Assembly (NCBI GenBank): GCA_902783115.1
Contig: CACZPW010000005.1
Location: forward strand, 1 to 32,825
Reading direction: 5' to 3'
From: an uncultured Ruminococcus sp.
Lineage (GTDB): Bacteria > Bacillota > Clostridia > UBA1381
Length of the DNA: 32,825 bases
Positions 10,610 to 25,800 of this stretch are shown piece after piece. Within the stretch, counting starts at the first letter, position 1, and each line of letters starts with the position of its first letter. A program made the position numbers and the translations under genes. Under the pieces are notes generated by a model that searched no databases, was not told the DNA's origin, and worked only from the letters and a program-made list of their open reading frames with translations.

Positions 10610-10661
10610 AAAAACTCCTCCTTTCATACAAATTTCAAATCAATTTCATTTCTGTTACTTT

Positions 10662-10708: not shown

Positions 10709-11635
10709 TTACAAAATAATATCAAGCATCTGCATGAGATCGTCTATCCTGTAATCGCACAGCTCGCCTACGCCCGCCTGCCCGATATTTCCGCCCGATA
10801 TGCCTACGCAGGAAAAGCCCGCAAGCTTAATGGATATAACTCCTGCGGAGCTGTCCTCGATGCCTATGACCTTGTGCCGCCTTTCAAACGGGATACCCAG
10901 TCCCACTCTTGCCGTTTCTGCATAAAGCCACGGATGCGGCTTTGGCGAAAGCTCGCCCAAAGTCCCCGTCTGCCCTTTTCTGAGCGCCTGACCTGCAGTT
11001 ATTATAGAATCGTAAAAGTCAACGGGATCGCCCATATCGAGCTGATTGAATGCGGATATTATTTCGGGCATTGCCTTTTCGTAAAGTCCGCTTGTGACAA
11101 GACCGATCTTTATCCCCTCGCTTTTTACCGCTGTGAGAAATTCCTTTAAATGCGGCGCGGGCGTAAATGCGTCACTCTTGCCCCTGCCGTTGAGAATCTC
11201 GTTCATTTCATGGTTTACGATCTCAAAATAATACTTTCTTGCAAGCTCCAGGCTGCCTCCCTTTGCATATTTGTCGATCATATACTGTAAATGCTCCGAA
11301 ACGGAATGTCCCGAAATAAACGGCTCGTCCTCCGCTTCTCTTTTGAAGCCGTTATCACCCAAAAGCCTTGCGGTCGTTTTTTCTATCACCCACATCCAAA
11401 AGCTTTCGCTGTGTACGCTTGTACCGTCAAGATCCATTAAGATCGCATCCGCCTTCGGCTCAAAATGCGTTTTATGCATCGGATAGACGGCAGGATAGCC
11501 CATACTGCTTTTTACATAGCAAAGGGTTTTGTCCTCAAATTCTATTATGTCGGTTTTTCTGTCGTTGGGAGTAAGTATTCTCTTTACTCCGTCACGCCCG
11601 ACCTCAAAAAAATCACTTTTTTGTATCTCGTTCAT
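10709..11635 (-). CDS. HAD-family phosphatase, beta-phosphoglucomutase-like
   Basis: A 308-aa haloacid-dehalogenase hydrolase. Motif I is DLDGTS, with nucleophile D68 and acid/base D70. A helical cap follows (about 80-165), then motif II around VTSG, the motif III lysine near SPKPHPW, and motif IV GIEDSSAGV. The sequence resembles the PGMB/phosphatase subgroup, so sugar-phosphate dephosphorylation or phosphate transfer is likely, but the substrate is unknown. About 60 residues precede motif I and are not part of the HAD core. It lies 25 bases after the alpha/beta-hydrolase gene and probably shares its promoter. No terminator was recognised after it. Confidence 0.85.
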   Translation of the reverse strand: MNEIQKSDFFEVGRDGVKRILTPNDRKTDIIEFEDKTLCYVKSSMGYPAVYPMHKTHFEPKADAILMDLDGTSVHSESFWMWVIEKTTARLLGDNGFKREAEDEPFISGHSVSEHLQYMIDKYAKGGSLELARKYYFEIVNHEMNEILNGRGKSDAFTPAPHLKEFLTAVKSEGIKIGLVTSGLYEKAMPEIISAFNQLDMGDPVDFYDSIITAGQALRKGQTGTLGELSPKPHPWLYAETARVGLGIPFERRHKVIGIEDSSAGVISIKLAGFSCVGISGGNIGQAGVGELCDYRIDDLMQMLDIIL

Positions 11636-11660
11636 CTTTTCCGTCCTTACCTGTACTTTT

Positions 11661-12440
11661 TTACAGATTTTCTACCCATCTTATCGCCATGTTTATCCAC
11701 TGCTGTACCTCGGGCACTATACCCGCCTTGCTTGTTGCAACCCACTCGTTTGCAAGGGACAGACCGTGATCGCCTTTGGGGAATATGTGAAGCTCCGTCG
11801 GTATTTTTTCCTTTGCCAGGGCAGAAGCAAGCAAAAGGCTGTTTTCCACCGGCACACATTCATCGGAGAAGGTATGCCAGATAAATGCCGGAGGCGCGTC
11901 CTTGCCGACCTGCTTTTCAAGCGAGACCTTTTCCTCAATATCCTTATTACCCTTTGCCAAAACGTCTATCGAGCCTCTGTGAGCGTACCCGCCCGCCGTT
12001 ATTACGGGGTAGGACAAGATCATACCGTTCGGTTTGTTCTTTTTATCCTGTCTTATTATTTTCTCCTCGCTGTTCCATAAAACGCCCAAGGATGCGGCAA
12101 GATGACCGCCTGCGGAAAAGCCGCATACTATGACCTTATCCGTATCTATATTCCAATCCTTTGCATTATCTCTTATTATGCATACGGCTTCCGAAAGATT
12201 TTCAAGCGCCGCAGGATACGCCGTATTTATCGAATAATATACCACAGCCGCATGAAAGCCTGCGGCATTAAAGGCAAGAGCTATAGGCTCCGCCTCCCTT
12301 TCGGCACGGGAAACGTAGCCTCCGCCCGGACATACGACAATGACCGGTCTTTTTCTGTTATTTTCAAGCGGATCCTTTATTATGTAGGTTTCAAGATATA
12401 CATTTTCTCCGCCGCCAAGCTGTATTCTTTTATGAAGCAT
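11661..12440 (-). CDS. Alpha/beta-hydrolase, acetyl-xylan-esterase/lipase-like
   Basis: A 259-aa hydrolase without a signal peptide, so probably cytoplasmic. It has a PGGGY oxyanion-hole region (about 38-42) and a nucleophile elbow GFSAGG (S109). A likely acid lies in the FSDECVPV segment (D193) and the catalytic histidine in GDHGLSL (H225). This pattern matches the small esterases (BD-FAE/AxeA-like) often found with plant-polysaccharide genes; removal of acetyl groups from imported oligosaccharides or sugars is plausible. It begins a short two-gene unit with its own sigma-A promoter. Exact substrate unknown. Confidence 0.85.
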   Translation of the reverse strand: MLHKRIQLGGGENVYLETYIIKDPLENNRKRPVIVVCPGGGYVSRAEREAEPIALAFNAAGFHAAVVYYSINTAYPAALENLSEAVCIIRDNAKDWNIDTDKVIVCGFSAGGHLAASLGVLWNSEEKIIRQDKKNKPNGMILSYPVITAGGYAHRGSIDVLAKGNKDIEEKVSLEKQVGKDAPPAFIWHTFSDECVPVENSLLLASALAKEKIPTELHIFPKGDHGLSLANEWVATSKAGIVPEVQQWINMAIRWVENL

Positions 12441-12543: not shown

Positions 12544-13932
12544 TCAGATCTTATACATTTTCAGATAATTTTTGGTATTGTTTATCATTTCGTCAAACAG
12601 TTTTTTTGACTCATCCGGGGTAAGTCTTACAAGCGGATCCGATACAAACGCCTGATACGCCAGATCCGGATCTCTTAAAAGACCTGCCTCAACAACCATT
12701 TCCTGGCGCGCGGAAACTCCGGCTACCAACGAGCGCACATTCATCGGAAGTGCACCTGCGCAAACAGGTCTTACGCTGCCGGAGCAAAACGACGCATTTG
12801 TTTCAACCACCGCATCATACGGCAGATCCGATATCTGACCTTTGTTTGGCATATTCACATTTGTAACAAAATCTTCAAGTCCGAGTATTGCCCGAAGCTG
12901 CTTTACTCCGTCCTCCTCCGTAGGCTCGATAACGAACTTCTCCTCGCCCGCACAAAGACGCTTCGCTTTTTCGTCCCTTTGCGCATAGGTCTCACGCCTG
13001 TAGCTTACGGGAGTGAGTGCAAAGCACCAGTCTTCGACCTGTTCCCTGCTCTTTAAGTACCAGTCGCCCGGGCAAAATTCCGCCAGATGCCTGTCGCCCG
13101 CCGCCGCAATAACGCCGTATCTTAAGAACAGGTCAAATTTTACCTTTTCAAGAAAACTCATGTATTTGTTCCAATTTGCGGTCTTTGGACGTATAACGCC
13201 CGTTTCCTTATATTTTAAGGCAAATTCCCTGTATACGGGGAATAGATCTATGTTTTTATACCGCGCGTCGGTTATCCATGTAAAATGGTTTACGCCAAGA
13301 ACGTTTATTTTTATTTCCTCACGCTTGACGCCCTTTATACCCAGAATGTCCTCCATTGCCTCTATAAGCACCTTCTGCGTTCCGAACACCTCATGACAGC
13401 AGCCGAATGCCTTGATTTGCGGGAATACCCTGTACATTGTCCTTATGCATACGGTCATGGGGTTTGTGTAGGATATTACCCATGCGTTGGGACATATATC
13501 CCTTATTTTGAGGGCAATTTCCTCATACATCGGTATGGTTCTTAGCGCCCTTATTATTCCGCCCGGACCCGTTGTATCGCCCACCGACTGGTATATTCCG
13601 TATTTCTCCGGCGTGTGAACATCGCTTTCCATTTCGTCCATTGTCCCGGGCAGAATGGAAATTATCACAAAATCCGCACCGCAAAGCGCCTCGTCGATAG
13701 TTTCAACAGCATGATAATTCCATACGGTTTTTGCGCCTTCGGCTGTGTTTGCAAGATTTCCTATACACTCGTTTCTTTTTGCCGCGGCGTAGTCCGTATC
13801 GTAAAGATACACATCGCCGCTTATATCGTCCTTTAATATCAGATCGCTCATAAAGCCCCACGCCCACTGTCTTGAGCCGCCACCTATGTACGCGATTTTG
13901 ATGTTTTCGACCTTACCGTCACAATATTTCAT
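12544..13932 (-). CDS. lplD: GH4 glycosidase, LplD-like (putative alpha-galacturonidase)
   Basis: NAD- and divalent-metal-dependent glycoside hydrolase of family 4, 462 aa, cytoplasmic. It begins with the NAD-binding AYIGGGSRQW, followed by SILPGTMDEME, the GIYQSVGDTTGPGG segment, metal-site residues in GCCHEVFG (C179, H180) and GVNHFTWI (H216). It matches my memory of Bacillus LplD closely along its whole length; LplD-type enzymes include alpha-galacturonidases. That points to release of galacturonate from small pectin fragments, but no uronate isomerase or KDG pathway gene is present here, so the natural substrate may differ. GGGAGGAC precedes the ATG. It can be read from the long operon and also has its own promoter. 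Confidence 0.88.
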   Translation of the reverse strand: MKYCDGKVENIKIAYIGGGSRQWAWGFMSDLILKDDISGDVYLYDTDYAAAKRNECIGNLANTAEGAKTVWNYHAVETIDEALCGADFVIISILPGTMDEMESDVHTPEKYGIYQSVGDTTGPGGIIRALRTIPMYEEIALKIRDICPNAWVISYTNPMTVCIRTMYRVFPQIKAFGCCHEVFGTQKVLIEAMEDILGIKGVKREEIKINVLGVNHFTWITDARYKNIDLFPVYREFALKYKETGVIRPKTANWNKYMSFLEKVKFDLFLRYGVIAAAGDRHLAEFCPGDWYLKSREQVEDWCFALTPVSYRRETYAQRDEKAKRLCAGEEKFVIEPTEEDGVKQLRAILGLEDFVTNVNMPNKGQISDLPYDAVVETNASFCSGSVRPVCAGALPMNVRSLVAGVSARQEMVVEAGLLRDPDLAYQAFVSDPLVRLTPDESKKLFDEMINNTKNYLKMYKI

Positions 13933-13963
13933 GATTTATGTCCTCCCTGCATTTATATATTGT

Positions 13964-13992
13964 ATATTAGTACCTATGTCAAGTATTGTCAA
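13964..13992 (-). promoter_or_regulatory. Internal sigma-A promoter before the GH4 gene
   Basis: Minus strand TTGACA (13992-13987), 17 bases, TAATAT (13969-13964). A second TTGACA (13982-13977) ten bases on has TATATA (13959-13954) at 17 bases, giving two overlapping promoter options. The first -35 box includes the stop codon of the upstream EamA transporter gene. This would allow the glycosidase to be expressed apart from the long operon. Confidence 0.72.
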
Positions 13993-14873
13993 GCCTTTGT
14001 TTTCATATCAAGCACCGCAATCAGAATACTTGCCGCAATAACAAGCAGCGATCCCGCAAAATTCAGCGCGGTCATTGCGATATTGAATATGATCAGATCT
14101 ACCAAAATACTTGTTACGGGCTCAAGCGTGCCGAGTATTGCCGCCCCTGAGCCGCCTATTAAAAACGTTCCCTCCTGGAACAGCACAAGAGCGGCTATAT
14201 TGGTCATAACCGCAAACAGCAGCACCAAAAGCCAGCCCGCAGCGCTCACAGGATATGTGATATTGCCCGCAATGAGGCAGGCAAGAAGCATTATTACCGA
14301 AGAAAATACGGCAATATAAAAGCTGAACGTAAATCCGCCCATGTCCCTGTATTTAAAGCCCGAAAGCGATATTATATACACCGCATAGGCAAACCCGGAC
14401 AAAAGGGCAAGCATACCGCCCATCACATTTATATCGTTGCCCGGGCTGTAAAAAAGAGCGACGCCCGCAATACAAAGCAGCACGCTCAGCATACGCCCCG
14501 CCGTTATCCTGCTCTTAAAAAGCATAAACTCGCCCAGAACAACGGCTGCCGGGTATATAAAATGGAACACCTCTGCGGTTCCCGCCGATATGTAATTATA
14601 GGACGAGAACAGCAAAAGCGGCGTTACGCAGCAGCCCATAAGCGCAATAAATGCTGTATAAGGCGCGGCTCTCGCCTCTATCCTGACAGATTTATTTTTA
14701 TACAGTGCAAGACAAAAAAGGAGCGGGACTGATATTAAATTTCTCAAAAATACAAGGCTTTTGGGATCAACGCCCATTGCATATATTCCCCTTGCCATAA
14801 GCGGACTCATTCCATAAATAACCGCACTCAATATGACAAAAAGATAGCCCTTGAATAATTTCTTCCGTTCCAT
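13989..14873 (-). CDS. EamA/DMT-family transporter
   Basis: A 294-aa integral membrane protein with about ten hydrophobic helices in two halves, the layout of two EamA domains (about residues 10-135 and 150-285). Members of the drug/metabolite transporter superfamily move amino acids, nucleotide precursors, sugars or other small metabolites; substrate cannot be read from sequence. It lies 19 bases after the SIS gene and is the second transporter in the operon, so import or export of a pathway intermediate is possible. A weak AAGG site precedes the ATG. Confidence 0.85.
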   Translation of the reverse strand: MERKKLFKGYLFVILSAVIYGMSPLMARGIYAMGVDPKSLVFLRNLISVPLLFCLALYKNKSVRIEARAAPYTAFIALMGCCVTPLLLFSSYNYISAGTAEVFHFIYPAAVVLGEFMLFKSRITAGRMLSVLLCIAGVALFYSPGNDINVMGGMLALLSGFAYAVYIISLSGFKYRDMGGFTFSFYIAVFSSVIMLLACLIAGNITYPVSAAGWLLVLLFAVMTNIAALVLFQEGTFLIGGSGAAILGTLEPVTSILVDLIIFNIAMTALNFAGSLLVIAASILIAVLDMKTKA

Positions 14874-14892
14874 AGCCCGCCTTACCTTCAGC

Positions 14893-15495
14893 TTACCGAT
14901 TATTATTCAGTCTTTGTCCGACAGCGCCGCCCGGATGGATAAGCGCAAACTGCTCCGAGGCATAGCCCGTTTCCTCAATGAGTGCTGTCTGCAAAGCGTG
15001 GAATATCATTATAAGCGCCGTTGTACTCGTCGTACCCTGGCAGTTATACTTATCCGTTTCCCTGTTTACATACTGCTTCAGGACAACGTCCGCACCCTTT
15101 GCAAGCGGTGAGGATAAATTCTCCGTTACGGTTATCACCTTGACGCCCTTTGCCTTGCAGATATCCAATATCGGCATAAGCTCCGCAGTTTTTCCGCCCC
15201 GTGATGCAAAAAGCATAACGTCGCCGGATTTTAAATACCCCGTTCCGCCGTGCACCGCCTCGGCAGGCGATATAAACCTTGCGGGGCGTTCTATACAGCA
15301 CATCAGATGCGCAAAATGCCGGCAAGCTATCCCCGAATGTCCGCAACCCGCCGCGCCTATTCTTTCCGCATTCTTTAATAGCTCTACAGCGTCAGAAAAT
15401 GCCTGCGCATCGAAATATTTTTTCATATCCCGTATACATTCCGCTTCGATATCATACGCCGCAAGCGCCATATCCATTGCTTCCTTGCTTATCAT
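14893..15495 (-). CDS. SIS-domain sugar-phosphate isomerase-like protein
   Basis: A 200-aa single SIS domain protein. GAAGCGHSG is the phosphosugar-binding first loop, FASRGGKTAEL the second, and the C-terminal HPGGAVG motif is typical of the KpsF/GutQ arabinose-5-phosphate isomerase group. The CBS pair of KpsF/KdsD is absent, as in HxlB- or GmhA-size proteins. An aldose/ketose phosphate isomerase or epimerase-like role is likely; the substrate is unknown. GGGGGA lies before the ATG. It is 12 bases downstream of the FGGY kinase, which suggests it acts on that kinase's product or a derivative. Confidence 0.85.
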   Translation of the reverse strand: MISKEAMDMALAAYDIEAECIRDMKKYFDAQAFSDAVELLKNAERIGAAGCGHSGIACRHFAHLMCCIERPARFISPAEAVHGGTGYLKSGDVMLFASRGGKTAELMPILDICKAKGVKVITVTENLSSPLAKGADVVLKQYVNRETDKYNCQGTTSTTALIMIFHALQTALIEETGYASEQFALIHPGGAVGQRLNNNR

Positions 15496-15507
15496 ATTTA
15501 TATCCCC

Positions 15508-16908
15508 CTAAAAAAGCTTTTCGTCAAGTCCGCAGTATCTTTTGTAGCAATCCGAATAATCCTTGCCCGACGGCGTGTAGACCTTATTTCTCTCTGCCGC
15601 CATATCGCACGCCTTTTCGACGCTTTCAAAAACTCCCGCCGCAACGCCCGCAAGTATTGCGGAGCCAAGACACGCGGTTTCGTCGTTTTTGAGCGTTACA
15701 AGGGTCTTACCCGTCATATCCGCTTTTATTTGACACCAAAGCGGACTCTGCGCTCCGCCGCCCATCGTCCGTATCTCGTCACAATCTATACCGCCGTAAT
15801 CAAGACCCGCCTTTAACATACACGCAACGGACTCCAGAATACTTCTTACAAAATGCCCCCTTGTATGCTCCATGGTAAGTCCGTAAAATACGCCCCTTGC
15901 GTCGGGGTTGTATTTGGGCATGGTGGCTCCGCAAAGATACGGCAGGAACGTAAGCCCCGCAGAGCCTGCCGGAACCTTATCCGCAAGAGAGTCAAGCGCC
16001 TTGAAGTCATAGTCCTCACAGAAATTGTTTTTAAACCATTTAAGGGCGATGCCCGCCGTCGGCGTCCACAGAAGCAGGCAGTATTTTCCGTCATAATTTA
16101 TATGGCAGGGTATCTTGCTTGCGACATCGTAGCCGGGCACGGTATCGGAGGGTACAAATACCACCATGGTCGTTCCCGTCATTTCGCTTATTATTCCCTT
16201 TTTCACCACGCCTGCGCCTATCGCTCCCGCGATCTGGTCTATCGCTCCCGTTACGATCTTTATGCCTTTATATTCGCCGATTGCCGTTCCGCACGGTATT
16301 ATTTCGGGCAATACGCCTTTTTGTACGCCGATAAAATCAAGCATATCCTCCCACCATGTACGGTTATGTATATCAAAATATATGGTCGATGACTGCAGGG
16401 TAGGCTCTGTCACAAATCTGCCCGTAAGCCTATACAAAAGCCAGTCCTCCAGGAGAAATACCTTGCTTATTTTTGAAAATACGGAGGGCTCGTTTTCCCT
16501 TATCCATAAGAGCTTGCTTGCAGGCCAGGTCGCAGTTATCTCGGGCTGTCCCGTTACATCATAGACCTTTTTTTCGCCGAAATGCTCTTTTATCTTATCC
16601 GCCTGGTCTGCCGCGCGGTTATCAAGCCATACAATGGCTTTTCTTAACGGGTTTCCGTCCTTGTCCGTTACTATCATCGTTTCGCACTGAGTGTCTATGG
16701 AAAGTGCGTATATATTAAAATCTGAGGACAGCTCATCTATCGCCTCAGACGCCAATTCCCAGTATTTATCCGCATCAAACTCAACGGTATCGCCCGATAC
16801 CGAAAGAGTGTAATCCTTTGTTACGGTTTTTTTGCAGACGGCATTTTCATCAAAAACAGCCGCCTTTAATGATGTTGTGCCAACATCTATTCCAAGTAAA
16901 TATTTCAT
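15508..16908 (-). CDS. FGGY-family carbohydrate kinase
   Basis: A 466-aa sugar kinase of the xylulokinase/gluconokinase/ribulokinase group. It has the ATPase fold opening LLGIDVGTTSLKAAVFD, the WLDNRA substrate segment, a GAIDQIAGAIGAGVV region and the C-terminal MGGGAQSPLWCQI ATP-binding motif. These features most resemble XylB-like kinases, and a ketose (pentulose or similar) is the likely substrate, but FGGY specificity cannot be assigned by eye. An upstream in-frame ATG at 16923 would add five residues; the GCGGAG site just before 16908 favours the later start. It probably phosphorylates the ketose formed by the FucI/AraA-like isomerase of the same operon. Confidence 0.9.
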   Translation of the reverse strand: MKYLLGIDVGTTSLKAAVFDENAVCKKTVTKDYTLSVSGDTVEFDADKYWELASEAIDELSSDFNIYALSIDTQCETMIVTDKDGNPLRKAIVWLDNRAADQADKIKEHFGEKKVYDVTGQPEITATWPASKLLWIRENEPSVFSKISKVFLLEDWLLYRLTGRFVTEPTLQSSTIYFDIHNRTWWEDMLDFIGVQKGVLPEIIPCGTAIGEYKGIKIVTGAIDQIAGAIGAGVVKKGIISEMTGTTMVVFVPSDTVPGYDVASKIPCHINYDGKYCLLLWTPTAGIALKWFKNNFCEDYDFKALDSLADKVPAGSAGLTFLPYLCGATMPKYNPDARGVFYGLTMEHTRGHFVRSILESVACMLKAGLDYGGIDCDEIRTMGGGAQSPLWCQIKADMTGKTLVTLKNDETACLGSAILAGVAAGVFESVEKACDMAAERNKVYTPSGKDYSDCYKRYCGLDEKLF

Positions 16909-16932
16909 ATTTTTTCTCCGCATAAAATTGTA

Positions 16933-16976
16933 GAACAGGCACGGGGGATAATATTCTCCCCCTGTAATTCCTGTCC
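16933..16976 (-). other. Intercistronic stem-loop between yjbQ and kinase genes
   Basis: The minus strand forms a two-part hairpin: an outer 7-bp stem (GGACAGG with CCTGTTC, one G-U pair), an asymmetric internal loop (seven versus three bases), an inner 6-bp stem GGGGGA/TCCCCC and an eight-base loop. No T-run follows. The position in an 83-base gap inside the operon suggests RNA processing, stability control or partial attenuation. Confidence 0.6.
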
Positions 16977-16991
16977 CAAAACCGTTGATTT

Positions 16992-17612
16992 TTATCTCTT
17001 CTGCTGAAGATCATAGTGAAGATCGTAAGCCTTTTCCTCGTCCGTAAACTTGTGCTTTGTATCGATCACTTCACCGTTATTCCACTTTCTGTCGCCTACG
17101 TCCTCAGTCGTTCCCATAACCGTAACGTTTACCTGTCTGTGACGCGCAAGAACGTGATCCCAGTCAATGAAATATACATGTGCGAATTTTCCGCCGTCAA
17201 GGATACCGTCCTTAATGGTCATAGTCTCTGATCTTCCGAAGAAGCAGCTTCTTAAATGTCCGTCCGTATTCATGCTCGAATAATCGCCCGGCTCGTCAAC
17301 GTATCTGCCGTACTGCGCATGAATGGGACCGGGGTGACGGTACTGATGCTCCTCGGCAAAGTCGGGGATCATCTTGCGCATGATGTCAAGAAGGTCATGC
17401 TGTAAATACTCCAGATCAAACGAATCAATATCGTGTGAACATTCCTGTACCATTACCGAGCAGGTCGTATGGTGCGATACTATGCTTACGGTACCGTTCT
17501 TTACGCCCGATGCTTCAACGATCTCGTTTATCTCCTTTGAGATGTCGTGAAACGTCGGTATCCAGCCTCTTGACTGCAATTCCAATTCCTTCTGATAAAC
17601 TTTAAATTCCAT
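16992..17612 (-). CDS. yjbQ: YjbQ-family (UPF0047) protein
   Basis: A 206-aa member of the YjbQ/UPF0047 family. HHTTCSVMVQE (about residues 47-57), the NTDGHLRSCFFGRSE segment and the late VTVMGTTED are conserved family marks. E. coli YjbQ shows weak thiamine-phosphate synthase activity, but the physiological role of the family is unsettled. The protein is longer than the usual 130-140 aa because of an insert (about 70-120) rich in His, Pro, Tyr and Asp. There is no thiamine gene nearby; it sits between the MFS transporter and the FGGY kinase, so a step in sugar catabolism is more likely. AGGAGG precedes the ATG. Confidence 0.85.
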   Translation of the reverse strand: MEFKVYQKELELQSRGWIPTFHDISKEINEIVEASGVKNGTVSIVSHHTTCSVMVQECSHDIDSFDLEYLQHDLLDIMRKMIPDFAEEHQYRHPGPIHAQYGRYVDEPGDYSSMNTDGHLRSCFFGRSETMTIKDGILDGGKFAHVYFIDWDHVLARHRQVNVTVMGTTEDVGDRKWNNGEVIDTKHKFTDEEKAYDLHYDLQQKR

Positions 17613-17653
17613 TTTCTTTTCCTCCTGTGTTTTTTATTTTAATGAAATTTTAT

Positions 17654-18916
17654 TTACTTAGGTAAGCTTTTTTTAAATCTGACTGCCATAGGCGCCGCAA
17701 ACGCCGCCAATACAGCAGCTATAACTATCATTACAAGCCACAGCGTCGTGACCGTATTCCAGCCGAATATCTCCGCTATCCGGGTCATGCCGTAGCTTGA
17801 GAAAACCACGCCCGCGCTTGCAAGCGCATTTGCAACGCCCGCGGCGGTGGCATTTTTACCGAACGCCGTAAAATATGTATAATAATACATTAAAAACATA
17901 TGCGTTGCGGTTGTAGTGAAGGTTACGCCGCAAAGCGACACCACCGCACCGCCTGCCGGTATCGTGCCGACAAGCTTTAATGCCGCCACAAACGGCACAC
18001 ACGCCAAAAGCATGATCGCCGTACCGGCCGCTTCGTCCTTTACGATCCTCGGATACAGTACAAGCCTTACCAGCACAAGACTTGCCAAGCCCGCAATTAT
18101 AACAAATGTATTAAGCAGATTGCCTATGGACGGAGATATTTTTTCATATGATTCCATAAGCATGGTAGGCGAAAGCATTTTTGCTCCGTTCTCGACTGCC
18201 GCCCTGAAAAATACCGCAGGCAAAAGCAGTAAAAATCCGCTTTTTGCAAACAGCTTACACGTCCCCGCAGCGCCGCCTTTTACCTTGCTTGCTTTTGCTT
18301 CGTTACTTGTATCGGGCTTCTTTATATATTCTCCGTAATGGATACAAAGCTCATACATAATAACGGTAAGCACCGTAAGGATGATCGCCGATACGGCAAA
18401 GTTATACTCCCATGACGGGATAAATGCCGCGATCACATATCCTAAAAGCAGACCGAACGAGGTCCCAAACGATATCAGGAATATCATTTTCGGGCGCTCC
18501 TTCTCCGACATCTGCGATGAAATAACCTTGAACACGGCAGGCCACAAGGGCGCCTGAATGACTGCCCCTATCGTCCACACTATAAGTATAACGTAATAGT
18601 TATGATTAAAAAATATTATCATATTCACTATTGCGGCGCTTATAAGTCCGGTCTGTATCAGCCTTTCGGGGTTGTATTTATCCGCCAGAACTCCGCCCGC
18701 TATCTGCAATGGCGCATATACGGCATAATACATGGCGGTTATAAGTCCCGTCTGTGATTTTGTAAATACACCCTGTGCAACGATCGATGCCATCGCCGAA
18801 TTGAAGCAGTTTCTTGTCATGTAAACCATACCGTACATGATCCATATGTATATAAAGAAATGTCTGCTCCTTTTTCTGCTTGCAAGATAAAGCTCCGGCT
18901 CATTGAGCATATCCAT
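17654..18916 (-). CDS. MFS transporter, organophosphate/sugar-type
   Basis: A 420-aa membrane protein with about 12 transmembrane helices. The motif GGVLADKYNPERL (about residues 78-90) between helices 2 and 3 is the MFS signature. N-terminal residues such as YMTRNCFNSAM resemble the GlpT/UhpC (organophosphate:phosphate antiporter) and related anion/sugar carriers. It is the main uptake candidate of the operon; no ABC or PTS parts are present, so the substrate is probably a monosaccharide, sugar acid or sugar phosphate rather than a long oligomer. GGGGAG precedes the ATG by about ten bases. It lies 29 bases after the TIM-like gene. Confidence 0.88.
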   Translation of the reverse strand: MDMLNEPELYLASRKRSRHFFIYIWIMYGMVYMTRNCFNSAMASIVAQGVFTKSQTGLITAMYYAVYAPLQIAGGVLADKYNPERLIQTGLISAAIVNMIIFFNHNYYVILIVWTIGAVIQAPLWPAVFKVISSQMSEKERPKMIFLISFGTSFGLLLGYVIAAFIPSWEYNFAVSAIILTVLTVIMYELCIHYGEYIKKPDTSNEAKASKVKGGAAGTCKLFAKSGFLLLLPAVFFRAAVENGAKMLSPTMLMESYEKISPSIGNLLNTFVIIAGLASLVLVRLVLYPRIVKDEAAGTAIMLLACVPFVAALKLVGTIPAGGAVVSLCGVTFTTTATHMFLMYYYTYFTAFGKNATAAGVANALASAGVVFSSYGMTRIAEIFGWNTVTTLWLVMIVIAAVLAAFAAPMAVRFKKSLPK

Positions 18917-18945
18917 GATTAAATATCTCCCCTTTGTATACGTCC

Positions 18946-19644
18946 TTAATGCATTTCATCCCACGCCTTGCGAAGGTTATACAGCATTTCCTCTACCATT
19001 TCATAGGGCTTATCGGATTTCATTATCCCGCTTGTGGTACCGGTTGCCTGTGCGCCCAATTTTATGGTGTTATATACGTCTTTGCCGTTTGAGATGCCCG
19101 CCCCCTGCAACACCATGATATCGGGGTTTATTTCATTCACCCTCTTTATGGTTTCTGTAACGTAGTTTGCATCGCTTGTCACGCCCGTACCTATAAGCTC
19201 GGTAGGCTCGGCAACAAGCAGATTGGGCGACATTTTTGCGATCGCGCATAATTCCTCGACAGTATCTGCACATACTATGGTCGCAAGTCCGACCTCATCG
19301 GCACGCTCTATCGTCTTTTCAACAACATCAAGCGTTAATTTCTTTTCCGCATGGTTTAGCATTACGCCCTTTGCGCCCGCCGCCTTGACGGCTTCGGGCA
19401 AAACAGAGCCCAAGCCCCTTCCGGGCGTCAAATAATCCATGTGCTGTGCAAAAACGAGTATTCTTTCCGTATTGTCCGCCAAAAGCTTTATATCCGTATA
19501 CTGCGGTGTGACGATCACGTCAAGGTCATATTTTATCGCCGTTTTGTCTATCACCTTTGCAAGCTTTAACATCCCCTCGCCGTACAAAAACGCCTTTGGA
19601 CCTATCTCAAAAAACGGCGGCTTTATTTTAAAATCCTTATACAT
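18946..19644 (-). CDS. Triose-phosphate-isomerase-like protein, archaeal type
   Basis: A 232-aa TIM-barrel protein most like the short archaeal triose-phosphate isomerases and the TIM paralogues of tetrose-phosphate pathways (for example EryH/LerI). Catalytic positions are kept: K17 in GPKAF (the usual NxK asparagine is Gly here), H68 in AQHMD and E146 in AEPTELIGTG. The LNHAEK and GAGISNGKD phosphate-binding loops are also seen. An isomerase acting on a short aldose/ketose phosphate is likely. The operon position, eight bases after the transaldolase, and the divergent N-terminus argue for a dedicated catabolic paralogue rather than the glycolytic enzyme. AGGAGG precedes the ATG. Confidence 0.87.
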   Translation of the reverse strand: MYKDFKIKPPFFEIGPKAFLYGEGMLKLAKVIDKTAIKYDLDVIVTPQYTDIKLLADNTERILVFAQHMDYLTPGRGLGSVLPEAVKAAGAKGVMLNHAEKKLTLDVVEKTIERADEVGLATIVCADTVEELCAIAKMSPNLLVAEPTELIGTGVTSDANYVTETIKRVNEINPDIMVLQGAGISNGKDVYNTIKLGAQATGTTSGIMKSDKPYEMVEEMLYNLRKAWDEMH

Positions 19645-19652
19645 ACTGCCTC

Positions 19653-20327
19653 CTAAAAGTCAAGTATTGTCTTGTCGCCGTATACCGCTTTCCAATCGCT
19701 TGTAAATCCGTTTACGGCAGCGTCCGTCATCGGGTGCGATATAGCCGCCTTGAATAATTCGGGAGCTATGGTTGCGGTATGGCAGCCCGAAAGTGCGCAG
19801 TTATGTATCTGCTCAACGTTTTTAAAGCTTGCCGAGAGCACCTGACAATCCAGACCGTAATTATCAAACTCTATAACTATATCCTCTACCACTCTTGTTC
19901 CGTCGCCTACGATATTATCGAGCCTGTTTACATACGGTGCAACAAAGTCCGCGCCAGCCTTTGCGGCTATCAATGCCTGCTGGGGCGTGAATATTGCCGT
20001 CATGGTAACGCCGATACCGAGCTTTTTGAGCATCATGGTCGCCTTTAAGCCCTCCTCGCCGATCGGAATTTTTATGTACAGCTCTCCGCCGACGGTTTCC
20101 TTTATCAGCTTTGCTTCTTCCACCATCTTTTCGGCAGTTGTCTGCACGGTCTGAACGTGGAGCATCTTATCATCGCCTATGATATTGCGGATCTCCTTTA
20201 TAAGCTTCCAAAAATCCGTTTTCTCCTTTGCCACAAGCGTAGGATTTGTTGTAACTCCCGCAATCGGATAAAATTCGTTTATGTGGCGTATTGCCTCAAC
20301 GTTTCCGGTGTCTATTAAATATTTCAT
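19653..20327 (-). CDS. Transaldolase/fructose-6-phosphate aldolase family protein
   Basis: A 224-aa member of the small FSA/TalC subfamily of transaldolases. These form a Schiff base with a lysine, here K86 in YIKIPIG. Other family marks are GVTTNPTLV near the start, TAIFTPQQALIAAKAGADFVAPYVNR, and the LSASFKN segment. It could transfer or release a dihydroxyacetone unit from a phosphorylated ketose; FSA and TalC activities cannot be told apart with confidence. Its ATG overlaps the isomerase stop (ATGA), a sign of tight translational coupling. The fixed order isomerase-transaldolase-TIM supports consecutive steps of one pathway. Confidence 0.92.
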   Translation of the reverse strand: MKYLIDTGNVEAIRHINEFYPIAGVTTNPTLVAKEKTDFWKLIKEIRNIIGDDKMLHVQTVQTTAEKMVEEAKLIKETVGGELYIKIPIGEEGLKATMMLKKLGIGVTMTAIFTPQQALIAAKAGADFVAPYVNRLDNIVGDGTRVVEDIVIEFDNYGLDCQVLSASFKNVEQIHNCALSGCHTATIAPELFKAAISHPMTDAAVNGFTSDWKAVYGDKTILDF

Positions 20328-21670
20328 ATGATTTCAACCCCCAATATATCACAAAGATTTTTGATTTTTTCAGTATTGTCGCCGTAGGATATGATGTAGT
20401 GCTGGCACATTACCTTATCGGCAAAATCCTCTACATCGTCCAGAAGTATCTCAAGCCCCGGCAGCTGCGGAGCCGGCTGGGTCCAGCCTGCCTCCTCCCA
20501 TTTTCTCGGCGTTATTCCCTCGCCCGTTACCATGTGCATATAATATTCACCGTCTATTGCGGTAAGTCTGCACATCGTAACCTTGCCTGTTTTTAGCTTT
20601 GATACGTTCAGAATTCCCTCCGAAAGCTCGCCGAACGCCGCAGGCATAACCGTTACATCTCCGTCTACCGCCTCGGCAGGCACATAGTCGGGTACGCCCG
20701 CTATTACACGATCTGTAAAGAATTCATAAAACTCCAGATACATCGCGCACTGACCTGTGAGGTATTTTACCATAAGCTGAGTTATGTTGCCCAGAGAATC
20801 GTTTTCGGGTATCGTGCAAAGCCCCGCCTCGTCCGAAAGGAGCATAAATATAGGCGCGGGCGGGAAGCCGAGAAGCTTTTTCATTCCGTCAACGTCCTTT
20901 AATGATATCGCACCGTAGCCTCTTTCATCGCATATTTCCTTTACTGCAAGATAGTAGCCCGCCGCCATCTTCATACTTTCGGGATTTGCAGGCTTTAAGA
21001 ACTTCCACTTACTCATTGCCTTATCTATTACCGCCTGCTTTTCCCCGTCTGTAATTTTCTGATACCTCTGTTCAATTTCAAGCATTTCAAAGGTTTCAAT
21101 CTCAGGGCCTATTTCACGCTTTAGAGATCCGCCGTCATAAAGAGTGCCGTATAAATTCATATCTCTGTAGCCTGCCATGCCCGATCTTGCATGACGGAGC
21201 TTTTTGGCTGCCGCTGCAGCAAGACAGTAGTTATACACAGTCTCTGTTTTTGATTTAAGCCCCACGATGTCGTATACATATTTAAACGTATACCCCAAAT
21301 CGTAAAAGGTTTTTCTGAGCGCCGTTGTACCTGCCTGATCAGCCGTCGTTACAAGCCTGTCGCCCTCCATCCAGCCGCACAAGCCCCACAGCACCATCGG
21401 CTTATCCCTGAAATGCTCGCAAACCTTTACTACCGCATGGGTGGGTATCCAGCCCGCAATGCAGACGACAAGGCAGTCAAAATCCTTGCCTGTCAGAGCG
21501 TCAACAGCTTTTTTTATGTCCTTCTCCTCATAGTCGTCGGTCACGGGATAGACCGAAACAAGGTCAAGTCCCTCTTTCTTCAGATTTTCTTCGGCTGTCT
21601 TGCACTTATTGATAATAATATCAATCGGTGTGTTCACCTCGCCAAATCCTACAAATGCCGCTTTTACCAT
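20324..21670 (-). CDS. L-fucose/L-arabinose isomerase-like sugar isomerase
   Basis: A 448-aa protein related to the FucI/AraA ketol-isomerase fold (manganese-dependent aldose-ketose conversion). Visible: an N-terminal Rossmann-like domain with VCIAGWIPTHAVV and VLWGLCGWMEGDR, a middle part with AGYRDMNLYGT, an EAGLC segment and the C-terminal half containing MHMVTGEGITPRKWEEAGW. It is not close enough to known FucI, RhaA or AraA to name the sugar. Three in-frame ATGs occur at 21679, 21676 and 21670; AAAGG is best spaced for the last one. It lies four bases into the transaldolase gene and about 40 bases after the capA remnant. Confidence 0.85.
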   Translation of the reverse strand: MVKAAFVGFGEVNTPIDIIINKCKTAEENLKKEGLDLVSVYPVTDDYEEKDIKKAVDALTGKDFDCLVVCIAGWIPTHAVVKVCEHFRDKPMVLWGLCGWMEGDRLVTTADQAGTTALRKTFYDLGYTFKYVYDIVGLKSKTETVYNYCLAAAAAKKLRHARSGMAGYRDMNLYGTLYDGGSLKREIGPEIETFEMLEIEQRYQKITDGEKQAVIDKAMSKWKFLKPANPESMKMAAGYYLAVKEICDERGYGAISLKDVDGMKKLLGFPPAPIFMLLSDEAGLCTIPENDSLGNITQLMVKYLTGQCAMYLEFYEFFTDRVIAGVPDYVPAEAVDGDVTVMPAAFGELSEGILNVSKLKTGKVTMCRLTAIDGEYYMHMVTGEGITPRKWEEAGWTQPAPQLPGLEILLDDVEDFADKVMCQHYIISYGDNTEKIKNLCDILGVEII

Positions 21671-21708
21671 TATCATCATCCTTTCTTTGTCTTAATTATA
21701 TTTTTACT

Positions 21709-22188
21709 TTACCGTTTTTGTCGATTTTGATATTGCTCATTTTTGAATATCTTTCCGGTATCGAATTGTCCGCCGAAATCAAGCTCACCCTCCTTTGGAG
21801 GCGTTGCATATCCCTCTTTATAAAGAGCTTTTTTGGGGGCGTTAAGCTTTGTTTTCTCCGCTATTTCAAAGAGCTTATCCATATCCTCTTTTCCGACGTA
21901 CAGAACTTTTTTTATTTCAAGCGCATTTATACCCGGCCGCCCCGGGAAATCCCTTGACTGCTCGCCCGCCTGAGCTCCGGACGAATACGTTGTCGTGCAT
22001 GAAATTATTGCGGCCCTTCCCGACGGTGTATCGATGAAGACAGGTCTTGAAGCCTCCGCAAGATTTCTTCCTCCGCCGCTTTGGAAAAAGCCCTCGGCAT
22101 TGATATAATCTCTTACAGCGTCAAAGCCGTCATAATATTTAGGAAGATTTTTTTGAACGGCGCAATCGCCTACGGCTGTAATTCTCAT
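21709..22188 (-). pseudogene. Remnant of a CapA-family (PgsA-like) protein gene
   Basis: A 159-codon open frame. The first 30 residues (opening MRITAVGDCA and reaching GFDAVRDYIN) match the start of CapA/PgsA-type metallophosphatase-fold proteins. From about residue 38 it jumps to the later GRNLAEASRPVFIDTPSGRAA and GEQSRDFPGRPG parts. The central segment, normally with the NLE and ANNH metal-binding motifs, is missing, and the frame ends some 150-200 residues early. I read it as an in-frame internal deletion plus a 3' truncation. The original ribosome-binding site and start survive, so a short product may still be translated, but catalysis is not expected. It lies between the M20 peptidase and isomerase genes in the operon. 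Confidence 0.75.
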
Positions 22189-22201
22189 AGCATATTACCC
22201 C

Positions 22202-23302
22202 CTATTCAAAATAATGCATAACAATATCCCTTACGATATTGACGCCCTTTTGAAGACTTGATTTTTCAACCCATTCCTCTCTTGTATGCGTTCCGCCGCC
22301 CATATACGCTCCCACGCATACTGCGGGTATGCCCATGGAATGAGGAATGTTACAGTCGGTAGAGCCTGATTGCTCGGAAATTTCAATGCCGGTATGCTTT
22401 GCCTGTACAGCCTTTGCAAATTCGGTCATTTCACGCATTTTTTCCGCATCAACATTTCTCATACAAGGTCTGTCGCCTACCTTTACAACCTCGACCTTTG
22501 CGCCCAACGATCTCATATATTCAAAAATTTCCTCAAACCGTTCCTTCATATACATAAGGTTATCGTAGGATACGCTTCTGTACTCACAAAGCATTTCCGC
22601 CTGCTGAGCTATTGTATTTACTGATGTACCGCCTGAAATATGCCCCACATTATATGTGGTTTTTCCGCCGCTTTTGGGTATTTCCAAATCATAAATCCTG
22701 CTTATTCCCCTTGATATAACATCAATGGCGCTTTTATTCCCGAACTTACTGTAGGAATGTCCGCCCTCGGTTTTTACCGTGACCTTATAGCGGTGTGAGC
22801 CTACGCTTACGTTTGCAACAGCGTCGTAATGACCGTCAAAGGTGTAAAACGCAACAACCTCCTGCCCGTATTTTTCCATTACCGCTTTTGTGCCTTTGAG
22901 GTTTCCAAGCCCCTCCTCACACGAATTGAAAACGATAAGAAGAGTGTTACGGGGCTTAGTGCCGATGTCGATTATATGCTTTAACACCGTCATAAGCATT
23001 ATGACAGATACCGTATCGTCGCCGCAGCCGGGGCAGTACACGTTTTTTTCGTCCTCCCAAAACGGCAAAGGCTCGGTATCGGGAAAAACAACGTCCGTAT
23101 GTGCCTCAAAAACCACCGTATCGCTTTTTTCTCCGTCAAGCTTTACGATTACGTTCCTTGCGGCGTCGATTTCGGCAGCCACACCCCATTCCCGAAGCTT
23201 ATTAAAAATATATTCCGCCCTTTTTTCTTCGTGATGCGACGGCGCGGGAATAATACACAGCTCACGCCACAGAGTATTTGCAAGCTTGTAATATTTTTGC
23301 AC
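22202..23302 (-). CDS. M20-family metallopeptidase
   Basis: A 366-aa zinc-dependent amidohydrolase/peptidase of the M20 family (ArgE/DapE/PepT/YgeY relatives). Metal and catalytic residues: H68 and D70 in FEAHTDVVF, D95 in the CPGCGDDTVS segment, the E129-E130 pair in NSCEEG, and a late histidine in GGGTHTREEW. A dimerisation domain with EGGHSYSK lies between. Likely reaction: hydrolysis of an amide or peptide bond of a small substrate in the cytoplasm. It starts within a base or two of the end of the ceramidase-like gene, and together they could release an acyl or aminoacyl group from the pathway substrate. Substrate unknown. Confidence 0.88.
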   Translation of the reverse strand: MQKYYKLANTLWRELCIIPAPSHHEEKRAEYIFNKLREWGVAAEIDAARNVIVKLDGEKSDTVVFEAHTDVVFPDTEPLPFWEDEKNVYCPGCGDDTVSVIMLMTVLKHIIDIGTKPRNTLLIVFNSCEEGLGNLKGTKAVMEKYGQEVVAFYTFDGHYDAVANVSVGSHRYKVTVKTEGGHSYSKFGNKSAIDVISRGISRIYDLEIPKSGGKTTYNVGHISGGTSVNTIAQQAEMLCEYRSVSYDNLMYMKERFEEIFEYMRSLGAKVEVVKVGDRPCMRNVDAEKMREMTEFAKAVQAKHTGIEISEQSGSTDCNIPHSMGIPAVCVGAYMGGGTHTREEWVEKSSLQKGVNIVRDIVMHYFE

Positions 23303-23303
23303 C

Positions 23304-24809
23304 TTACGCCTCCTTAAACATCTTATTGATTTCCTCGGTCGTTTTCCTTACCAGCATCTCGCCGCCGGCATGACCTACCTTTCCGCTCGATACGTATGCG
23401 CTGTAATGACTTCCCTTTTCCGCCTTTTCGGTAGGCAAATATCCGCACTTTCCGCAGGCTAACTGAATCAAAATCGTCTGTCTTGCACGGCTCCTTGCGC
23501 GTATCTGATTACCGTAATCCAAAAACAGCTCAAACGGATTTGTTGCTATAGCAACGTTCCCGAGTCTTGCGATATGTATCTCTACAGGCTCGATATCCCT
23601 TGTATGCTGTAATTCATACCTCATTATCGTTCCCGTATGTATGTGCATTTTCGCATTATCATCAAAGTTTACATGATCCTCTACCTTAGCCGCAAAGCTT
23701 TCAAGCGCCTCCTTTGCATGCTCGTACTCCGCAGGCGTTACACGTCTTAAAGGCAGGTCTATTGTAAGCTTTTCGTGCTTTAATACCGCCTCGTCATACT
23801 TTGTACGGACTCTTTCAAGCGCCATTTCCATCTCGTTTACTATACGCTTTCCGACAAGCCAGCTTCCCTCTATATCAAACATCGAAGGATCGGCGTCACG
23901 CTCTATATAGTCGTTTCTTTCAATATTCGGATCGTCTATCGGGGTTTCGGGGTTTACCCACCTTATCATATCCCTCGGACACTGATCGCCCGCCGCAGAG
24001 CAAAGTCCCAGTACGAACAGATCCTCGCCGTACTTTTCACGCAGCAATATTTTCACCTTGCCCCAGTAATCGGAGGATATGAACATTCTGTGCTCCAAAA
24101 CCTGCGCAGGGCAGGCAATATCTCCTACAACGCCCGTAAGCTTACCGTTTTCATCGTAGAAGAAGAGCATTTCTATTCCGCTGTCGTTTCCGCCCTCAAG
24201 CTCGGTAAATGACGCCATATTGGTATCGCCCCACATTTTTGCGGAGCCGTCCGAATAGCACACACGTCTGCACATACCTATTGCCGCTCTTCCAAAGCCC
24301 TGTGCAAATTTTCCGCTTCGTCTGTTCTCCCATGCCTCGACTACCGCTTTTGTGATACGTTCCTCCAAAAACAAAAATGCTTCTTTTCCGTCCATAAAAT
24401 CATCGCCCTTTGCCGATACCTTGGGTACGTACTGCTTTTCGGGAGGAAGATATGAATCAAGAATTTCCTTGAATGTTCTCAGTCCGGTTTCCTGTTCATT
24501 GTTGCTTTCTCTTGCATAAACGTGCGATGTATGCGTATGTATTGCAGAAATAATTATCTTATCGGTATCTATCTCGCTATTTAAGCCCTTTACATTTTCT
24601 CTTACCTTTTCCAAAAGATTTTCGCCTATGCTCACAAGATCGCAGGAGCATATTATAAGCTGCTCTTCACCGTCCTCTATGGCAAGCGCCGTAACGGTTA
24701 CGGGCGTTTCAACGTATTCGGATATTCTTTCCGCAAACTGTCCCGCAAGACCTATTTTTTTATCGGGTGTTATGCTGACCTCAGACCAGCCGATATTCAA
24801 TTTATTCAC
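23304..24809 (-). CDS. Neutral/alkaline ceramidase N-terminal-domain-like protein
   Basis: A 501-aa protein with the fold of the neutral ceramidase N-terminal hydrolase domain: GWSEVSITPDKK at the start, then IICSCDLVSIG, the ISAIHTHTSH metal-binding motif, a GLCSAAGDQCPRD motif near residue 270, and a late C-terminal LACGKCGYLPT segment. There is no signal peptide and no C-terminal immunoglobulin-like domain, so it is probably cytoplasmic and unlikely to be a true ceramidase. Bacterial proteins of this type often sit in sugar gene clusters. Start is GTG, with AAAGGAGG upstream. It is the first gene of the large operon, after a consensus promoter. Its substrate may be an amidated or acylated sugar derivative, but that is inference. 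Confidence 0.8.
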   Translation of the reverse strand: MNKLNIGWSEVSITPDKKIGLAGQFAERISEYVETPVTVTALAIEDGEEQLIICSCDLVSIGENLLEKVRENVKGLNSEIDTDKIIISAIHTHTSHVYARESNNEQETGLRTFKEILDSYLPPEKQYVPKVSAKGDDFMDGKEAFLFLEERITKAVVEAWENRRSGKFAQGFGRAAIGMCRRVCYSDGSAKMWGDTNMASFTELEGGNDSGIEMLFFYDENGKLTGVVGDIACPAQVLEHRMFISSDYWGKVKILLREKYGEDLFVLGLCSAAGDQCPRDMIRWVNPETPIDDPNIERNDYIERDADPSMFDIEGSWLVGKRIVNEMEMALERVRTKYDEAVLKHEKLTIDLPLRRVTPAEYEHAKEALESFAAKVEDHVNFDDNAKMHIHTGTIMRYELQHTRDIEPVEIHIARLGNVAIATNPFELFLDYGNQIRARSRARQTILIQLACGKCGYLPTEKAEKGSHYSAYVSSGKVGHAGGEMLVRKTTEEINKMFKEA

Positions 24810-24852: not shown

Positions 24853-24884
24853 TTTCGGTTTGATTATATATCAATTTCGTTTTA
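24853..24884. promoter_or_regulatory. Candidate DeoR operator repeats
   Basis: On the plus strand tttcggtttg (24853-24862) and tttcgtttta (24875-24884) are direct repeats 22 bp apart, about two helical turns, flanking and overlapping the -10 box of the minus-strand promoter. A third partial copy, tttcggtctt, occurs at 24970-24979 after the deoR promoter. TTTCG-type direct repeats fit the style of DeoR-family operators, but the assignment is by pattern only. Confidence 0.5.
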
Positions 24885-24891
24885 ATGTCAA
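24863..24891 (-). promoter_or_regulatory. Sigma-A promoter of the carbohydrate operon
   Basis: Minus strand TTGACA (24891-24886), 17 bases, TATAAT (24868-24863): a perfect match to the sigma-A consensus. It lies about 54 bases upstream of the ceramidase-like start. The promoter is likely to need repression when the substrate is absent; the divergent deoR gene is the obvious regulator. Confidence 0.88.
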
Positions 24892-24917: not shown

Positions 24918-24946
24918 TTGACAATTTGTTTGTTTTATCATATAAT
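24918..24946 (+). promoter_or_regulatory. Sigma-A promoter of the deoR gene
   Basis: Plus strand TTGACA (24918-24923), 17 bases, TATAAT (24941-24946): another perfect consensus. Its -35 box is 27 bases from that of the opposing operon promoter, so one bound repressor could affect both. Confidence 0.88.
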
Positions 24947-24984: not shown

Positions 24985-25060
24985 GAAAAAAGAAGGTGAA
25001 AATACCGCAACATCGGAAGAAAGAAAAAAGAAGGTGAAAATACAGTGACATCGGAAGAAA
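24985..25060 (+). repeat. 38-bp tandem duplication at the deoR translation start
   Basis: Two adjacent 38-bp copies (24985-25022 and 25023-25060) differ at only three positions, and a partial third copy begins at 25061. Each contains the AAGGTGA ribosome-binding sequence and the first codons of deoR. In the downstream copy the start is GTG; in the upstream copy the equivalent codon is GCA, so initiation there is lost. The unit is not a multiple of three. Confidence 0.85.
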
Positions 25061-25800
25061 GAAAAAAGAAAATACTTGATATTATCAATAAAGAGGGCAA
25101 GGTAAAGGTCACGTCGCTGAGCCGCAGATTCGGCATATCCGAGGTGACGGTAAGAAGCGATCTTGCGGATATGGAATATAACGGACTTCTAAAACGCATA
25201 CACGGCGGGGCGGTAAGCTCGTATAAGCCGTATTATACGATGAATCTCACGCAGCGTATGGAGGCAAACAGGACGGGGAAAAAGGCGGTCGGTGAAAAGG
25301 TCGCCGCAATGGTGGAAAACAACGATACGATAATGATAAATTCGGGCACTACCACGCTTTCGGTATTCCGTTCCCTGCCCACAGACTATAGTCTCAATAT
25401 CATCACAAATTCCGTTACCATCGCATTGGAATCGGCAAACCGCCCCGGCTTTAACATAATCCTTTTAGGCGGACTTATAAACTCCAAGTATCAGTTTACC
25501 TACGGAGATGACGCAAACCGCCATATCGCAAACTACCATGCGGACAAGGCGATACTTTCCGTTGACGGTATCGACACCGCAAACGGCTACACCACCTATT
25601 ACGATAAGGAAGCGGAAATAGACCGTATGATGCTTGAGCGTTCCTCATTTAAAATAATAGCGGCAGATTTTACAAAGTTCAACCGTACCGCATTTACCAA
25701 AATATCGGATATAGACAGCGCCGATATCATCGTTACCGACAAGGACATACCCGATGATTTTGACGAAGCACTCATCGAAAAATGTATAGTATTTGAATGA
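25045..25800 (+). CDS. DeoR-family transcriptional regulator
   Basis: A 251-aa repressor with an N-terminal winged helix (about residues 1-57; recognition part FGISEVTVRSDLADME) and a C-terminal DeoRC sensor domain. The sensor domain has the sugar-phosphate-binding INSGTTTLSVFRSLP motif, and SVDGIDTANGYTTYY is a family mark. Members usually respond to phosphorylated sugar intermediates. It is the only plus-strand gene, transcribed away from the carbohydrate operon, so it is the likely local repressor of that operon and perhaps of itself. The start is the GTG preceded by AAGGTGA; it follows a 38-bp duplication. A bidirectional terminator lies after the stop codon. Confidence 0.93.
   Translation: MTSEERKKKILDIINKEGKVKVTSLSRRFGISEVTVRSDLADMEYNGLLKRIHGGAVSSYKPYYTMNLTQRMEANRTGKKAVGEKVAAMVENNDTIMINSGTTTLSVFRSLPTDYSLNIITNSVTIALESANRPGFNIILLGGLINSKYQFTYGDDANRHIANYHADKAILSVDGIDTANGYTTYYDKEAEIDRMMLERSSFKIIAADFTKFNRTAFTKISDIDSADIIVTDKDIPDDFDEALIEKCIVFE

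Follow-up and report, generated by a model that had tools for sequence, protein, structure and literature searches.

A minus-strand carbohydrate operon at positions 12544-24809 of contig CACZPW010000005.1, from an uncultured Ruminococcus sp. (assembly GCA_902783115.1; the window, meaning the whole stretch analysed, has 32,825 nucleotides), encodes a triosephosphate isomerase (TIM)-like protein, a YjbQ/UPF0047 protein and a SIS-domain isomerase, and no other link found is as tight as that of YjbQ and SIS with TIM. The robust result is the pairing of TIM with YjbQ and the wider TIM/YjbQ/SIS triad, and it is more interesting than the isomerase-transaldolase-TIM core put forward in an original prediction made from the sequence alone, which had not singled out YjbQ and SIS. 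The conserved core of the operon is a sugar isomerase (ISO), an FGGY-family kinase and a neutral-ceramidase-like protein (CER), together with the triad. The operon could encode a catabolic route for an aldose in which the sugar is isomerised, phosphorylated and then passed through a carbonyl-moving relay by the TIM-like, YjbQ and SIS proteins, a reading that we hold tentatively and place a little below an even chance. The window comes from a draft genome of 2.2 Mb (G000), which has gut and rumen Clostridia as its nearest relatives. The genes on which the argument turns, including a fructose-6-phosphate-aldolase-type enzyme (TAL), are as follows.

23304-24809, minus strand: CER, 501-residue neutral-ceramidase-like protein, first cistron; assigned by predicted fold
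20324-21679, minus strand: ISO, sugar isomerase of AraA/FucI fold; assigned by predicted fold
19653-20327, minus strand: TAL, fructose-6-phosphate-aldolase-type (FSA/TalC); NF009299 222.2 bits over a cut-off of 214
18946-19644, minus strand: TIM-like isomerase, FEIGPK replacing the N-x-K motif; PRK04302 200.1 bits over a cut-off of 132
16992-17612, minus strand: YjbQ/UPF0047, 206-residue subfamily; PF01894 84.5 bits over 27
15508-16923, minus strand: FGGY-family sugar kinase, nearest model XylB; PF00370 173.4 bits
14893-15495, minus strand: SIS-domain sugar-phosphate isomerase, KpsF/GutQ-like, no CBS domains; PF01380 66 bits

The neighbourhood of ISO was surveyed at 69 loci encoding ISO relatives from named genomes; among these are metagenome-assembled genomes (MAGs) from rumen and gut, one of Christensenella, and the genome of Eisenbergiella tayi. 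Genes within 8 kb of ISO were counted at the 40 loci flanked by at least 6 kb on either side, and at these CER was present at 29, FGGY at 27, TIM at 22, YjbQ at 19 and SIS at 18. The gene set is kept across many gut Clostridia with its order shuffled (for example, CER-ISO-TAL-TIM-MFS-YjbQ-FGGY-SIS, TIM-SIS-YjbQ-FGGY-ISO-TAL-CER and ISO-FGGY-CER-YjbQ-TIM-SIS). Clustering that is kept despite such rearrangement points to a shared function of the genes. The predicted carbohydrate-catabolic operon is supported, and it is conserved.

Among 101 relatives, close ISO was found in 19 genomes and the TIM-like gene in 22, and YjbQ and SIS each occurred in 21. The latter two shared exactly the same genomes (21/21), TIM added one incomplete genome, and 17 of the 19 ISO-bearing relatives carried the TIM-like gene. 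Fisher p values among ISO, TIM, YjbQ, SIS, CER and close FGGY lay between ~1e-10 and 4e-22, and are descriptive only because they are uncorrected for shared ancestry. The predicted core thus kept its TIM member but not its transaldolase, as TAL occurs at only 9 of the 40 well-flanked ISO loci and is confined to those with ISO more than 80% identical (0/23 below 80%).

An independent test was made in 299 genomes sampled across the phylum. The TIM-like protein and this YjbQ subfamily occurred in the same eight genomes besides G000, and the two genes were adjacent in all eight, with 20-73 bases between the matches; close ISO was found in none of these eight. The link concerns the subfamily, because UPF0047 as a whole is present in 199 of the 299 genomes; the family is also found in E. 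coli, B. subtilis and archaea.

Three of these eight genomes have an HxlB-type 6-phospho-3-hexuloisomerase and Rpe after the TIM-YjbQ pair (L122:9203-12525, L123:7293-10581 and L124:1179-3743), and the two HxlB copies scored of the three gave 205.1 and 197.4 bits over a cut-off of 160. A DeoR gene and a fructose-type phosphotransferase system (PTS) stand beside these genes in L122 and L123, while the third locus is a short contig. HxlB of the ribulose monophosphate pathway type is shared with these operons, but here it is accompanied by Rpe, and no HxlA was seen among the genes beside it in the three operons. HxlB is apparently used here outside formaldehyde fixation.

The other five genomes have a class II ketose-bisphosphate-type aldolase next to or near the pair (L127:5765-9976, L128:9500-13724, L125:5383-12793, L126 and L129; the copies in L125, L126, L127 and L129 were scored and that in L128 was read from sequence). 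Most of these loci also carry galactitol- or glucitol-type PTS parts, some of them read by eye. A DRL-family oxidoreductase gene adjoins the pair at L126:10278-11618.

Nearer to the window, FGGY is found with an ISO paralogue, TIM and YjbQ in distant paralogous operons, which also have a SIS or NagB-like isomerase and sometimes an amidohydrolase. At L100:5300-11320 the order is FGGY-ISO-TIM-NagB-like-YjbQ, with the NagB-like isomerase in the SIS slot, and L103, L104:4726-11226 and L106:2102-11316 have an AraA-like isomerase, FGGY, Amidohydro_2, TIM and one or two YjbQ copies, with SIS also present in L104 and L106. In most of the settings outside the ISO operon, the sugar would already carry a phosphate when it reaches TIM-YjbQ. 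The strict adjacent pairing of TIM and YjbQ, together with SIS or HxlB and a kinase or PTS, narrows the role of this YjbQ subfamily to sugar phosphates, and is a strong genomic clue that the TIM-linked branch works on them.

The TIM-like protein is unlikely to be a glycolytic TIM. Its catalytic K17, H98 and E146 are invariant and align with 1hg3, and the Lys/His/Glu set is kept in all TIM-like proteins examined; its score against the triosephosphate isomerase equivalog TIGR00419 was 105 bits, under the cut-off of 130.6. In the members beside ISO/FGGY, SIS or HxlB, the Asn of the N-x-K motif is replaced by Gly (F-E-x-G-x-K, with G15 in the protein of the window; a divergent L092 copy has S at this place), while the five members beside class II aldolases keep N-P-K. 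This split by gene context suggests that the Gly- and Asn-type proteins differ in substrate. A canonical TIM is encoded elsewhere in the genome (G000:C177), on which ground a housekeeping role was rejected, and its presence together with the Asn-to-Gly replacement argues against the return to glycolysis that had been predicted for the TIM-like protein. EryH-type enzymes may also lose this Asn, which serves as a lead only.

These data bear directly on a cleavage route, in which the sugar would be imported, isomerised, phosphorylated and cut to trioses by the FSA-type enzyme, the TIM-like protein would lead back to glycolysis, and YjbQ and SIS would be accessory. TAL overlaps ISO by 4 bases and adjoins TIM in the window, and it keeps all FSA catalytic residues, with K86, Q59, Y132, R135 and S167 invariant in 16 orthologues (we take these to be the Schiff-base Lys, the FSA-type Gln/Tyr and the phosphate-site Arg/Ser). 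It scored just under the TIGR00875 cut-off (230.6 against 245.95). The retained Lys/His/Glu of the TIM-like protein and the aldolases of the five phylum-wide operons would also fit cleavage. However, TIM, SIS and YjbQ persist at the more divergent ISO loci from which TAL is absent, the genome already has its canonical TIM, and the N-x-K Asn is lost in the very members linked to SIS/HxlB and ISO/FGGY and kept in those linked to aldolases. We therefore regard the cleavage route as unlikely. Under the relay reading, TAL, which is dispensable in the operon family, could serve as an optional exit, and this role is held as tentatively as the relay as a whole. A transaldolase route for D-apiose was also considered and was rejected chemically, as apulose lacks a C3-C4 aldol bond that could be cleaved to give dihydroxyacetone.

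For YjbQ, the score against TIGR00149 was 63.0, just under the cut-off of 67.75. The NCBIfam name of the family refers to a secondary thiamine-phosphate synthase activity. In a 2021 review YjbQ was still of unknown function, and E. coli overexpressing it can bypass pdxB, by a route not understood (PMC7954711). These side activities fit a small-phosphate binder and do not decide the reaction. Phosphotriesterase-family (Php-like) genes were seen near TIM/YjbQ at L118:709-1746 and L107:1310-2374; E. coli php, like yjbQ, rescues a pdxB mutant on overexpression (PMC7954711), and this coincidence may not be due to chance. The SIS protein gave 114.1 bits with the kpsF model, and its nearest solved structure was 3fxa (146 bits).

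The AraA/FucI-like character that had been read for ISO was borne out by its predicted fold, although its match to Fucose_iso_C was weak (25.1 bits, under the cut-off). An AlphaFold2 model built from 53 sequences (predicted local distance difference test score, pLDDT, 92.6) aligned with L-arabinose isomerase at Z 32.8 over 434 residues and 3.3 Å, and with L-fucose isomerase at Z 30.2. Three residues, E289, E313 and H424, are nearly invariant; in the family profile the first and the last of them fall on GEGD and HH, the metal-site motifs of AraA. A single-sequence search of the PDB with ISO returned no match at E<=1, which supports the original prediction on this point; of the equivalog models only SftI gave a score, at 45.3 bits against a cut-off of 700. 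The FGGY kinase scored 320.5 with the XylB model TIGR01312, below the cut-off of 380.

The weak SftI match raises the possibility of sulfoquinovose breakdown by the sulfo-TAL pathway, with ISO as sulfoquinovose isomerase and TAL as sulfofructose transaldolase, the two enzymes that form the core of that pathway (PMC9594981). The sulfo-TAL and sulfo-TK systems do resemble the operon in combining an AraA/FucI-superfamily isomerase with a TAL_FSA-family enzyme. Here, however, there is an FGGY kinase, and TAL is of FSA type, with the FSA-type Gln/Tyr, and far closer to fructose-6-phosphate aldolase 9v4b than to BmSF-TAL (168.6 against 111.8 bits). The operon lacks a GH31 sulfoquinovosidase and a sulfolactaldehyde reductase, and of sulfoquinovose isomerase, sulfofructose transaldolase, sulfoquinovosidase and sulfolactaldehyde reductase or dehydrogenase, none is present at the defining level. 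Together with the dispensability of TAL, this makes sulfoquinovose breakdown very improbable.

CER, of 501 residues, has no Pfam or NCBIfam family match, yet the ceramidase-like nature proposed for it agrees with its predicted fold. The model (pLDDT 92.6) aligned with the catalytic domain of the neutral ceramidases, at Z 36.6 over 395 residues and 3.5 Å for 2zws of P. aeruginosa and Z 34.2 for 4wgk, with the next unrelated structure at only Z 4.2, and the family profile reached two ceramidases (E 5e-5 and 2e-4). The HxH motif H91/H93 is invariant in 49 relatives and aligns with THTHSGP of human ceramidase. CER is shorter than known ceramidases (501 against 630-670 residues); because their C-terminal part is absent, activity on lipids is doubtful. 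As no N-terminal signal peptide was apparent by eye either, CER is likelier to be a cytoplasmic amidase-type hydrolase than a ceramidase. In L118:16248-19306 and L119:13307-16447, GH28-like and GH88-like genes follow ISO and CER, which hints that some relatives draw on a pectin- or glycosaminoglycan-like source.

Known isomerase-kinase pathways end in AraD, FucA or RhaD. The AraBAD, FucIKA and RhaBAD systems share with this operon an AraA/FucI-fold isomerase and an FGGY kinase, but in place of their third enzyme it has the TIM-like/YjbQ/SIS triad, and the ceramidase-like hydrolase besides. In the relay that we propose, some of the aldose would come in conjugated form, joined by an amide or glycoside link, and CER and the M20 protein (here also GH4), judging by fold and family, could free it inside the cell. 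ISO would convert the aldose to a ketose and FGGY would phosphorylate the ketose, as their families and co-occurrence suggest. The triad would then remodel the ketose phosphate. By analogy with LerI, which acts on L-erythrulose 1-phosphate, the TIM-like protein would shift the carbonyl from C2 to C3 in a ketose 1-phosphate. With a hexose, YjbQ might make the next, middle shift; alternatively, it could epimerise or cleave the sugar phosphate at this point. SIS, or HxlB in the PTS operons, would bring the carbonyl from position 3 to position 2 as numbered from the opposite end. The strongest support for a 3-keto intermediate comes from HxlB of the PTS version, itself a C3-to-C2 ketose-phosphate isomerase. 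The product would be a D-ketose 5- or 6-phosphate entering the pentose-phosphate pathway or glycolysis, and Rpe in the PTS version would fit a pentose variant.

A precedent for moving a carbonyl in two steps is provided by LerI and DerI, which convert L-erythrulose 1-phosphate to D-erythrulose 4-phosphate and then to D-erythrose 4-phosphate (PMC10733421). The operon could itself serve a C4 route of this kind, with the kinase making L-erythrulose 1-phosphate, the TIM-like protein D-erythrulose 4-phosphate and SIS D-erythrose 4-phosphate, TAL leading into the pentose phosphate pathway and YjbQ acting on C4 phosphates. However, the known substrates of AraA/FucI-fold isomerases are pentoses and longer sugars, and the operon has neither a tetritol dehydrogenase nor an RpiB-type DerI. 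The order of a kinase and two isomerases does match LerK/LerI/DerI (PMC10733421), and the pdxB block that YjbQ bypasses in E. coli lies at a C4 phosphate (PMC7954711). The tetritol systems LerK/LerI/DerI and EryA-EryB-EryC-EryH-EryI resemble the operon in having a kinase, a ketose 1-phosphate isomerase and a second sugar-phosphate isomerase (PMC10733421, PMC10190533), but here the TIM belongs to the archaeal PRK04302 type, SIS stands as the second isomerase, and the set is extended by a preceding aldose isomerase and by YjbQ. A C4 route is thus quite improbable, more so than cleavage.

Several points weigh against the relay. The TIM-YjbQ pair also stands beside class II aldolases, a setting that does not require the carbonyl to walk to position 2. 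SIS in the window is KpsF-like and matches HxlB weakly (51.9 bits against the cut-off of 160), and YjbQ is not known to act as an isomerase. A 5- or 6-phosphate, if this is what FGGY makes, would leave the TIM-like step with no obvious substrate. Some ISO loci have only ISO and CER, with no triad within 8 kb, and the triad occurs without ISO in five genomes, some of them incomplete. Anatomy, adjacency, co-occurrence and conserved residues are observed and the folds are predicted with high confidence, while the reactions, the sugar and the direction are deduced. In its most specific form the relay would make the TIM-associated YjbQ proteins sugar-phosphate isomerases or lyases that act immediately before or after a modified TIM, the walking carbonyl resetting the stereocentres of ketose 1-phosphates and turning rare or L-sugars into D-ketose 5- or 6-phosphates; we consider this specific form doubtful.

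The remaining features of the operon and its head are listed below.

24863-24891, minus strand: operon head promoter, TTGACA-17-TATAAT; sigma-70 consensus 12/12
24918-24946, plus strand: divergent DeoR-gene promoter, TTGACA-17-TATAAT; sigma-70 consensus 12/12
25045-25800, plus strand: DeoR-family regulator, AgaR-like; PF00455 148.1 bits, AgaR 198.1 bits
22202-23302, minus strand: M20-family metallohydrolase, DapE/ArgE-like; PF01546 73.5 bits
21709-22188, minus strand: CapA/PGA_cap-family relic (pseudogene); alignment with intact relatives of 419-436 residues
17654-18916, minus strand: MFS transporter, nearest models UhpC/PgtP-type; PF07690 98.7 bits, TIGR00881 83.5 bits
13989-14873, minus strand: EamA transporter; PF00892 90.5 bits
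12544-13932, minus strand: GH4 glycosidase, accessory, motif CHEV at residue 179; PF02056 185 bits

The original prediction of a one-strand operon with short gaps, a consensus head promoter and a divergent DeoR gene was correct, as were its assignments to GH4, EamA, SIS, FGGY, YjbQ, MFS, TIM, TAL_FSA and M20, with which the Pfam and NCBIfam profile scores used for the window proteins agree. Twelve co-directional open reading frames (ORFs) are separated by gaps of 1, 13, 29, -4, 8, 29, 41, 68, 12, 19 and 56 bases. Its count of twelve cistrons holds for the ORFs, but the operon has eleven intact cistrons and one decayed CapA-family relic, because the ORF at 21709-22188 has lost two large internal blocks relative to intact CapA relatives and is frameshifted, with its C-terminal end in another frame. 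Intact homologues occupy the same place in L032 and L004, and CapA was found at 5 of the 40 well-flanked ISO loci. The DeoR gene adjoins many ISO loci and is present at 13 of these 40. MFS (10/40), M20 (3/40), GH4 (1/40) and EamA (0/40, seen only in the window copy) were treated as non-core because they are rare at related loci.

Beyond GH4, HAD-family and BD-FAE esterase genes follow on the same strand (10709-12440), and a relative of the same genus (L116) has a syntenic HAD gene of ~86% identity near GH4. A 343-residue ORF further 3' on this strand (9596-10627) had no match in Pfam, NCBIfam or PHROGs, and Rfam and tRNA scans of the window gave no match. No named pathway with the whole set was found in the open-access literature searched, in line with what had been predicted, and this literature held nothing useful on YjbQ with ceramidase, isomerase or operon, on UPF0047 with TIM, or on gut-bacterial ceramidase-like proteins.

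UPF0047/YjbQ proteins are widespread, yet have had no accepted physiological role (PMC7954711). If the relay is true, it would give a branch of this family its first physiological role, and would define a type of pathway common to kinase- and PTS-fed operons. It would also mean that some genes now named triosephosphate isomerase or thiamine-phosphate synthase are misnamed, and would provide gut bacteria with a general way to use rare sugars.

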